A DNA stretch of 64,000 bases from Actinopolyspora alba (GTDB lineage Bacteria > Actinomycetota > Actinomycetes > Mycobacteriales > Pseudonocardiaceae), in NCBI RefSeq assembly GCF_900112765.1, contig NZ_FOMZ01000007.1, positions 124,001 to 188,000 of the forward strand, read 5' to 3'. This document shows, in pieces, positions 37,553-46,616 of this stretch. Numbering within the stretch: the first letter of the stretch is position 1; the number at the start of each line of letters is the position of its first letter. Under the pieces are notes generated by a model. It had not been told where the DNA came from and did no database searches. It was given only the letters and a program-made list of their open reading frames with translations. The position numbers and the translations under genes are program-made.

Positions 37553-38818
37553 TTATTTCACCTGGTCGGAAGCTTCGCCGTCGGACTCGCCCATCGCCTT
37601 CGCGATCGGTTCCGCCGTCAGTTCCACCTGCCAGGGCCGGGCGCCGCGTTCGTGCAGCTGTGCCGCTATCGATGCCACACCGCCATCCGAGGGAGGTTGC
37701 CAGCAGAGCCTGCGCACCAGATCCGGCAGCAGCAGGTTCTCCACCGGCAGGTTGTTCCGCTCGGCGATACCGGAGAGCACGTTCCGCACCGCGCTCAGCC
37801 GGGACGCCGCGGCCGCGTCCCGTTCCGCCCACCTGTTCGTGGGTGGTGGTCCGTCGTTCGGTGCGGTGGTGGCGGGCAGTTCCTCCTGGTCCAGCTCGCG
37901 TGCGTTCCGCAGCGCCTCGAACCACTGCTCGGATCGCCTGCGCTGCTGCTTGCCACCGAATACCGGCAGCGCGACGAGGTCCTCTCTGGTGGCCGGGTTC
38001 TCCCGCGCCGCCCGGATGATCGAGCTGTCCGGCAGGATCCGTCCCGGCGCGATGTCCCGGCGGCGGGCGATGTCGTCCCGCAGTTGCCACAGCGCGCGCA
38101 CGATCGCCAGCTGTACCGGGGTGCGCAGCCGGTGGATTCCCGAGGTCCGACGCCACGGTTCCGGTCGTGCGGGTGGCGGCGGAGCCGTGCGAACCGCTTC
38201 GAACTCCTGCATCGCCCAGTCGAGCTTGCCCTGCTTGTCGAGTTCCGCGCGTAGCGCGGCACGTAGTTCGACCAACAGCTCCACGTCGAGGGCCGCGTAC
38301 ACCAGCCACTCGCGGGGCAGCGGTCTGCGCGACCAGTCGGCCGCACCGTGTCCCTTCTCCAGCCGGTACGACAGCAGTCGCTCCGCGAGTGCGCCGAGTG
38401 ACACTCGTTCGTAGCCGGCCAGTCGGCCCGCCAGTTCCGTGTCGAAGAGCCGATCCGGACGCAGGCCGAGCTCGGCCAGGCACGGCAGGTCCTGCGAGGC
38501 CGCGTGTAGTACCCATTCCGTGTCACCGAGTGCGGCGACGAGCGGCCCCGGATCCCCGTTCAGCGCGATCGGGTCGATCAGTACCGTGCCCGTGCCCTCG
38601 CGGCGTAACTGCAGCAGATATGCCCGCTGCGAGTAGCGGTACCCGGAGGCGCGCTCGGTATCGATCGCGATCGGCCCACTGCCCGCGGCGAGTGCCGCGG
38701 CAGCGAGACGCAGGGATCGGGGCTGCTCGACCACCGGTGGGACACCACCGGAGGGACGCGTCAGCAACACTGGTTCGGAGTGGTCCGGTTCGGCGGATTC
38801 GGGGTGAACAGCATCCAC
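37553..38818 (-). CDS. Ribonuclease D-like 3'-5' exonuclease with HRDC domain
   Basis: A 421-residue protein. The DEDD exonuclease core starts at ExoI PIAIDTERASGYRY, ExoII is around VLHAASQDLPCL with DTELAGRLAGY, and ExoIII YAALDVELLVEL. The HRDC domain begins near IHRLRTPVQLAIVRALWQLRDDIARRRD. It probably trims RNA 3' ends (tRNA or degradation intermediates). The GTG start at 38818 has GAGGGA 17 bases upstream, rather far; TATCGT 9 bases before the start could be a -10. Same position as Rv2681. Confidence 0.85.
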   Translation of the reverse strand: MDAVHPESAEPDHSEPVLLTRPSGGVPPVVEQPRSLRLAAAALAAGSGPIAIDTERASGYRYSQRAYLLQLRREGTGTVLIDPIALNGDPGPLVAALGDTEWVLHAASQDLPCLAELGLRPDRLFDTELAGRLAGYERVSLGALAERLLSYRLEKGHGAADWSRRPLPREWLVYAALDVELLVELRAALRAELDKQGKLDWAMQEFEAVRTAPPPPARPEPWRRTSGIHRLRTPVQLAIVRALWQLRDDIARRRDIAPGRILPDSSIIRAARENPATREDLVALPVFGGKQQRRRSEQWFEALRNARELDQEELPATTAPNDGPPPTNRWAERDAAAASRLSAVRNVLSGIAERNNLPVENLLLPDLVRRLCWQPPSDGGVASIAAQLHERGARPWQVELTAEPIAKAMGESDGEASDQVK

Positions 38819-45729: not shown

Positions 45730-46038
45730 TCACCCGGAGAACGCCGCCACCATGAAGACCAGGGCGTTCCATATCGTGAAGGCCACTCCCAGCAGGATCA
45801 GCGTGACCACGACGACGGCGAGCAGTCTCCGCTCACCCCGCAGTCGGTTCGCGCTCTGCGCGAAGTCGCCGACCCCCTGCAACATGCCCTCGACGGTCGC
45901 TCGGGAACCGCAGTGCTGCATCCGGTCCAGATGCGCGGCGAACGCCTGCGCCTCCGGGTCGTGCGGGTCCAGTCCGATCAGGTCGTCGGCGAAACGGCCG
46001 GCCGGCTCGTCCGGTTCGCCGTGCTCGGCGCGTGACAT
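45730..46038 (-). CDS. Small membrane protein, unknown function
   Basis: A 102-residue protein with a polar, acidic N-terminal half (FADDLIGLDPHDPEAQAFAAHLDRMQHC) and one or two C-terminal membrane segments (LLAVVVVTLILLGVAFTIW and ALVFMVAAF). ATG at 46038. I do not recognise the family. It lies 85 bases upstream of msrB and could be in the same transcript. Confidence 0.6.
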   Translation of the reverse strand: MSRAEHGEPDEPAGRFADDLIGLDPHDPEAQAFAAHLDRMQHCGSRATVEGMLQGVGDFAQSANRLRGERRLLAVVVVTLILLGVAFTIWNALVFMVAAFSG

Positions 46039-46343
46039 GTCTCCACGGTAACCCTCCGTGCTCTTCCACGCGCCCGTATCGAACGTTCACCGGAGCCACC
46101 TGATCGGTTCGGAAAGCCGCTGTCGGACTTCGTTCAAGCGGTTCTCCCGTTCCGGTACGGGCGGAACCTCCCGCGGCTGATCGGGTGGGCGCGCGGCTGA
46201 TCGGCTGGGACGGGCACCGACGAAGCGCCGGTGCCGAACGGGAAATGGTGTTCGATCGCGGGTGTCGCCCGTCCAGCGGTATCCGTGGCGCGGACGGCGG
46301 GGCAGCATCGACGTGTCGATGTTCCTGCGATCAGGAGGCCGTC
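46039..46343. other. Divergent region before the cysteine-rich peptide gene
   Basis: 305 bases. The AGGAGG site at 46333-46338 serves the downstream small gene. A promoter could not be read with confidence. A short minus-strand frame ending at 46087 is not supported. Confidence 0.5.
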
Positions 46344-46448
46344 ATGGAGCAAGCCGTGGCACAGACCGCGACGGAGACACAGTTCGGTGGGTGCAGCTGC
46401 TGCGCCAGTTGCAGTGGCCCCTCCTGCGGGTGCTGCAGCAGCTGCTGA
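46344..46448 (+). CDS. 34-residue cysteine-rich peptide with tandem CxCCxxC motifs
   Basis: The peptide begins MEQAVAQTATETQFGG and ends in a core with eight cysteines in its last 18 residues: CSCCASC (17-23), spacer SGPS, CGCCSSC (28-34). It thus holds two copies of C-x-C-C-x-x-C. AGGAGG lies 5 bases before the ATG, among the strongest ribosome-binding sites in the window, and a hairpin terminator follows at 46520-46559. The leader/core layout fits a RiPP precursor; the CxCC motifs equally fit a metal-binding peptide. No modification enzyme, transporter or metal regulator is adjacent. I do not recognise the family. It is real by signals, function open. Confidence 0.65.
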   Translation: MEQAVAQTATETQFGGCSCCASCSGPSCGCCSSC

Positions 46449-46519
46449 CGGGACCCCGCGGCCCCGGGTTCCGCATGTGCTCGCGGAGCGGAACCCCGCC
46501 GTCCGCCCTCGCTACGGGG

Positions 46520-46559
46520 AGGCCCGACGTCGAGTGGTCGAATACGCCACGTCGGGCCT
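46520..46559 (+). terminator. Terminator after the cysteine-rich peptide gene
   Basis: A perfect 11-bp stem AGGCCCGACGT (46520-46530) / ACGTCGGGCCT (46549-46559), 18-base loop, followed by TGTTCG. It could also serve the convergent lipoprotein gene. Confidence 0.7.
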
Positions 46560-46616
46560 TGTTCGCGAGGGCACCGCGAGCGAACCCGCGGGGGATTCCG
46601 CTCCCCGGGCGCGGCA

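Follow-up and report, generated by a model that had tools for sequence, protein, structure and literature searches.

A candidate metallothionein-like peptide of minimal size, with four ligands in each half, in the Pseudonocardiaceae

Very small metallothioneins are described in fungi. According to the excerpts of PMC13107397, those of Neurospora crassa and Agaricus bisporus have seven cysteines and bind around six copper ions, and Heliscus lugdunensis is named as having a small eight-cysteine metallothionein. The peptide family described here shares with these proteins, as they appear in the excerpts, a very small size and seven or eight cysteines, a likeness drawn from size and cysteine count and not from sequence comparison. 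The fungal proteins are eukaryotic, and our family differs from them in its CxCCxxC-GP-CGCCxxC pseudo-repeat, in the use of histidine in one genus and in its bacterial promoter. Among bacterial metallothioneins a mixed Cys9His cluster is also on record, and PsdMT has a histidine ligand (PMC7387436, in excerpt). Within the same limits of the source, SmtA/PsdMT and MymT resemble the family in being small and cysteine-rich, in the histidine ligand of PsdMT, and in sequestering metal inside the cell, a function that our peptide may share; unlike them, the family has no Pfam or NCBIfam match to known metallothioneins. SmtA/PsdMT and MymT are also longer.

Two further systems are similar in appearance. 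In mycobacteria cysteine-rich short ORFs control a downstream gene (Canestrari et al. 2020, as described in the excerpt of PMC9031893), and these polycysteine ORFs on leaderless mRNAs resemble our gene in being short, cysteine-rich and actinomycete. In contrast to them the gene studied here mostly stands alone, with its own downstream hairpins, a convergent neighbor and selection acting at the level of the peptide. The precursors of thiopeptides and other cysteine-rich RiPPs share with it a C-terminal end rich in cysteine, serine and glycine, but the family lacks a conserved leader and a steady enzyme neighbor, and exchanges cysteine for histidine.

The window (the whole 64,000-nucleotide stretch of Actinopolyspora alba DNA analyzed) contains a gene of 34 codons on the + strand, encoding MEQAVAQTATETQFGGCSCCASCSGPSCGCCSSC followed by a stop (46344..46448), identified by reading of the frame and by homologs in the genus and family. 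The ATG lies at 46344 and the TGA ends at 46448. A ribosome binding site AGGAGG (46333..46338, +) stands five bases before the ATG, and GGAGG-type sites precede most of the 80 named relatives. The first 16 codons (46344..46391, +) are variable, and absent or unrelated in other genera. They are followed by the core CxCCxxC-xGPx-CGCCxxC (46392..46445, +), conserved in an alignment of relatives, whose cysteines are putative metal ligands. The C-terminal 18 residues, CSCCASCSGPSCGCCSSC, contain eight cysteines, which is 8 of 34 residues in the window peptide and 8 of 21 in the forms from Lentzea. The peptide is thus metallothionein-like in being small and cysteine-rich with CxC, CC and CxxC spacings. 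A previous sequence-only reading had reported the 34 codons, the well-spaced AGGAGG, the stop, a stem 71 bases further on and the eight cysteines in the last 18 residues; re-reading of the DNA and its translation confirmed all of these.

Alignment of the relatives gave the consensus G-C-x-C-C-x-x-C-[ST]-G-P-x-C-G-C-C-x-x-C, and in the named loci the stop follows directly or one residue later. The ligand positions, glycine, proline and the Ser/Thr before the turn are kept, and little else is. The N-terminus ranges from 1–2 to about 17 residues, with start codons predicted from the position of the ribosome site, and is unrelated between genera: the 16 residues in the window are replaced by MVRTE... 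in Saccharopolyspora and MAVEITT... in Saccharothrix. The Lentzea forms start MGGC or MAGC and are 21 amino acids long, and several others likewise have no N-terminal extension; in one such example MGGCSCCGGCTGPGCGCCSSC is the whole product. Products are thus as short as 20–21 residues. The sequence-only reading had taken the N-terminal 16 residues for a leader, an interpretation that this comparison does not support. Inspection by eye found no signal peptide.

The departures from the consensus are informative. In divergent members, from a set of 24 loci of which one is clipped, the four cysteines of the first half are re-spaced as CxCxCxxC or CCxCxxC, and none is lost. In one genus, g10, which is probably Amycolatopsis in the narrow sense, histidine occupies the first cysteine position in 65 of the 65 loci read, giving a type with seven cysteines. 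Twenty-eight of these are identical (MHGCCSKCTGQGCGCCGNCN) and 37 are longer, and 12 of the 65, all of them among the longer forms, have a further terminal histidine. Exchange of cysteine for histidine, together with re-spacing that costs no cysteine, is the behavior of metal ligands. Seven cysteines plus a histidine would be a misfit for a peptide with all its cysteines in disulfides or azoles, and would suit metal ligands well. We also observed that in 37 of the 65 g10 members (L249–L285) the ligand core is immediately preceded by a few N-terminal residues, mostly cationic and hydrophobic (MIKRLLKVVLR, for example), which are possibly an anchor to the membrane or to a partner.

Selection was analyzed on 107 distinct 57-nt cores of the eight-cysteine type, corresponding to 60 distinct peptides with the tail. 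The overall pN/pS is 0.25 (5671 pairs). The variable columns gave pN = 0.48 and pS = 0.58. The motif columns have pN = 0.001 with pS = 0.73; in the named loci it was the search pattern itself that set these columns, so that the invariance of Cys, G and P is partly built in, but the synonymous variation is not, and profile searches did yield departures from the pattern. All four glycine codons, all four proline codons and both cysteine codons are in use across the cores. From these patterns of substitution we conclude that the peptide sequence is under purifying selection.

The peptide is present in all 10 Actinopolyspora genomes, the window's own included; six copies are 97–100% identical and four are 71–79% identical. 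A search of the Pseudonocardiaceae with one sequence found it in 165 of 390 genomes, and a profile built from 35 members raised this to 220 of 390, covering 41 of 46 genera. Absence of a homolog from close relatives had been named beforehand as the result that would count against the gene, and the opposite was found. The ORF at 46344–46448 is a real gene. A query of the histidine type matched 65 of 80 g10 genomes (E up to 1); one locus was read in each, and each was a member of the family. Twenty-one of these genomes were already among the 220, and the other 44 bring the total to 264 of 390. Divergent forms may escape in the remaining 126, since the profile was applied to no more than 20 candidates in each genome; of these, G015, G031 and G270 were still empty with 85–144 candidates scored.

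In a phylum-wide draw of 296 genomes the window genome alone matched, and in a class draw of 394 genomes an earlier profile matched the window, one other member of the Pseudonocardiaceae and two genomes of other families, where only part of the profile was covered. Scanning the genomes of named species with a DNA pattern gave 101 stretches, and among the 80 listed nearly all carry what we take to be Pseudonocardiaceae genus names. The exceptions among those 80 are one record under the name Nocardia sp. NRRL S-836, one MAG labeled Actinomycetes and one record under the name Candidatus Melainabacteria; the last agrees in contig number and match position with the Pseudonocardiaceae genome G183. 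A phage or plasmid origin was rejected: tblastn gave no match with the low-complexity filter on, which may hide one, and four pattern hits on viral contigs lie in frames of 365–507 codons that do not belong to the family.

Searches of NCBIfam and Pfam with 16 members, the window peptide included, and four histidine-type forms returned no family, and no NCBIfam precursor model matched. The one member match in PHROGs had E = 0.092, which we take as chance, and two weak matches to solved structures (E = 0.1 and 0.94) were unconvincing. A structured-RNA reading was discarded, the three Rfam matches all falling far below the gathering score (best E = 0.11). Literature searches with core sequence strings found no such peptide, the lone match being a paper on DNA polymerase, and there was no description of the family among the matches listed; the excerpts of PMC7767326 and PMC6103462 hold nothing bearing on it. 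The remark in the sequence-only reading that no described family has this pattern agrees with Pfam, NCBIfam, PHROGs, the structures and the literature among the matches listed. The kind of molecule is already known; the family and its architecture are absent from the libraries searched. Amycolatopsis tucumanensis carries a member (L052). A copper-related metallothionein has reportedly been found in that species, and could be the product of the L052 gene or of another.

Two hairpins follow the gene. Folding predicts the first, with a 9-bp stem (46466..46496, +; arms 46466–46474 and 46488–46496). The second (46520..46559, +) lies between convergent genes and has perfect 11-bp arms (46520–46530 with 46549–46559) that start 71 bases past the stop. 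For the region 46440–46575 the fold is better than in 199 of 200 shuffled sequences (z = −2.98). The second hairpin had been called a terminator stem. There is no T-run, and a terminator scan requiring one made no call at this position; it is a probable terminator lacking a T-run. In 63 of 79 named loci (one of the 80 was too short and was dropped) the 120 nt past the stop hold a perfect stem 8 bp or longer, compared with 9.9% of shuffles.

The gene is mostly solitary, and its neighbors vary between genera. As judged by a rough ORF caller, 56 of 74 loci have a convergent gene next downstream; in the other 18 that gene is co-directional, and in 10 of those it lies within 250 nt. In 38 of the 80 named loci the peptide gene faces, within 500 nt, a convergent gene for a TAP-like alpha/beta hydrolase, and the window's own convergent neighbor is such a protein (Pfam PF08386). 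In Lentzea the neighbors include a 4HBT thioesterase and a MetE-like protein among others, and those in g10 differ again. Most of the g10 loci L221–L248 have the gene between what we take to be low-molecular-weight phosphatase-like and NIF3-like genes; this setting, absent in other genera, is possibly a link to metal. No metal gene or metal-regulator box was found as a steady neighbor. The sequence-only reading noted that no modification enzyme is adjacent, and the wider survey bears this out: up to 8 kb was taken from each of 80 loci, and no modification or maturation enzyme was recognized by eye among 20 representatives of the commonest neighbor clusters; five neighbors were compared with Pfam, and a rare enzyme could escape such a survey. 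We observed separately that a 102-residue protein (window 45730–46038, −; clusters c7 and c2 in the loci), which by eye has a single likely membrane segment and has no Pfam match, lies upstream in Actinopolyspora and Saccharopolyspora, often beside msrB (SelR domain).

The region upstream of the gene contains an 18-bp promoter element. A Gibbs search of 51 non-redundant upstream regions (from 77 of full length among the 80; best of six runs) gave the consensus TCRCTCGnnnRGCGGTRT, present in the window as TCGCCCGTCCAGCGGTAT (46265..46282, +), where it was found both by matrix search and with the relaxed form TCRCYCNNNNRGCGGTRT. Scores of at least 12 were obtained in 49 of the 51 regions, and the element is lacking from the other two, L064 (5.2) and L088 (1.5). 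A sequence TAnnnT starts 38 or 39 bases past the start of the element in 38 of the 51 relatives; over 1000 shuffles this count averaged 3.3 and never exceeded 10. The interval had been picked after inspection of the sequences. The candidate −10 box of the window, CAGCAT (46303..46308, +), is placed by alignment alone and is a misfit to TAnnnT. In this promoter model about 35 bases separate the −10 box from the ATG, a ribosome site is present and the transcription start is predicted; the center of the element would then fall near −42, and an activator bound to it would overlap the −35 region. For the histidine type, whose loci are close relatives and not independent, 38 of 65 upstream regions score at least 11 compared with 0 of 65 when shuffled. 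Among the loci scoring at least 8 there are 45 instances of TAnnnT at a distance of 38 or 39 bases. The element thus travels with the gene across unrelated surroundings. It corresponds to no metal box that we recognize, and to our knowledge the promoter is unlike the kinds under SmtB or RicR control.

Taken as a whole, the data make it probable that the gene encodes a metallothionein-like metallopeptide of minimal size, which has four ligands in each half and is expressed from its own promoter. The product would be a cytoplasmic peptide that stays unmodified and folds its C-terminal 18 residues around metal ions. CxCCxxC and CGCCxxC could each contribute four ligands, with the central x-G-P-x forming a turn between them, and the two halves might form two Zn(II)-type sites or a single thiolate cluster. 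A thiophilic metal would be soaked up, buffered or handed over, and the gene would be transcribed as a single-gene unit when a regulator acts at the element near −42. Given the use of histidine as a ligand in one genus, Zn(II) is slightly favored over Cu(I). The sequence-only reading had offered a RiPP precursor processed in trans or a small metal-binding peptide. The latter is favored by the retention of all eight ligand positions, the exchange of cysteine for histidine in 65 of 65 loci and the re-spacing; the part that depended on a leader is not favored. The family is short enough for gene finders to miss, yet it occurs in 41 of 46 Pseudonocardiaceae genera. Should the peptide bind metal, few gene-encoded metallothionein-like peptides would be shorter; it would be cheap to synthesize and titrate, and its promoter would offer a clean route to a new regulator in antibiotic-producing actinomycetes.

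It is conceivable, if rather unlikely, that the peptide is not a buffer and is instead a metal-stabilized micro-domain, a zinc fold that binds a protein, RNA or regulator, perhaps the factor acting on its own promoter. The strictness of the sequence, including the G-P, and an element that moves with the gene would suit a dedicated partner better than a metal sponge, and the cationic N-terminus of 37 of the 65 histidine-type loci points the same way. Against this, no residue is kept beyond the ligands, Gly, Pro and Ser/Thr, the N-termini are unrelated and no partner gene stays nearby.

We consider it improbable that the peptide is a RiPP precursor matured in trans, with its cysteines converted to thiazole, thioether or another form. 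The product is small with a C-terminus rich in Cys, Ser, Thr and Gly, and leaderless ribosomal peptides such as the microcin C-type precursors exist. But histidine replaces cysteine in every g10 locus read, no NCBIfam precursor model matches and no such enzyme appeared among the commonest neighbor clusters of the 80 loci up to 8 kb; moreover, occurrence in 41 of 46 genera is unlike the patchy distribution of RiPP clusters. A leader-dependent RiPP is unlikely, since the leader is missing or unrelated across genera and there is no steady maturation-enzyme neighbor. A peptide rich in disulfides or active in thiol redox chemistry, whether secreted or retained in the cytoplasm, is a still weaker candidate: the majority type does have an even number of cysteines, eight, yet the histidine type has seven, the CC pairs are vicinal, the spacing of the first half shifts and no signal peptide is seen by eye. 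Lastly, a Cys-responsive attenuator of the mycobacterial kind, in which translation of the short ORF controls the gene downstream, recalls an actinomycete short ORF rich in Cys codons and would suit the 18 of 74 loci with a co-directional next gene (10 within 250 nt), but is most improbable given that the next gene is convergent in the other 56 and in the window, that our gene has a ribosome site where the mycobacterial ORFs are on leaderless mRNAs, and that G, P and spacing, which attenuation does not need, are kept under free synonymous change.

The metallothionein-like assignment might extend further. The family could represent a new, ultra-small class of bacterial metallopeptide, 20 to about 37 residues long with two halves of four ligands each joined at G-P, that is retained in most genera of a large family of antibiotic producers, has a near-dedicated regulator and may be a metal sensor or chaperone and not a bulk buffer; we put this forward tentatively. 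The idea of a near one-gene circuit is rated lower because the element occurs at other sites. A matrix scan of the window and loci (2.02 Mb, both strands) gave 59 sites scoring above 11 off the gene and 130 at the gene, counts drawn from overlapping loci. One of them, TCCCTCGGATGGCGGTGT at 37677–37694 (−) in the window, is near the consensus and has a matrix score of 21.3, equal to the median at the gene. When 31 loci were inspected, five of the 28 sites listed were at the peptide gene, and two of the five had a normally spaced −10 box; among the other 23 one, in L187, also has a normally spaced −10 box and lies ahead of a 310-codon frame. The sites at 37677–37694 and in L187 count against a strictly private element, and a second target is possible, with these two as the candidates. 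Eight further non-gene sites had no theme in common. Allowing up to one mismatch in 12 genomes gave 88 sites, including those of the gene itself, and 91 for the reversed control, i.e. no excess. Among 200 family genomes, 13 contain the exact sequence TCACTCGNNNAGCGGTGT, at one site each, and 8 of the 13 sites are directly before the peptide gene.

Some species carry two members, among them a Lentzea (L064 and L101), Umezawaea beigongshangensis (L066 and L088) and Prauserella endophytica (L097 and L099). For the Lentzea and the Umezawaea it is the longer copy (L064, paired with L101, and L088, paired with L066) that is without the promoter element, which suggests divided regulation between the paralogs. 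The exact element was also observed in four genomes of genus g7 (L150–L153, from base 1501). In L150 and its kin it is upstream of a tiny ORF, MARALLLRRRDGV, which in our view resembles the leader peptide of an amino-acid operon.
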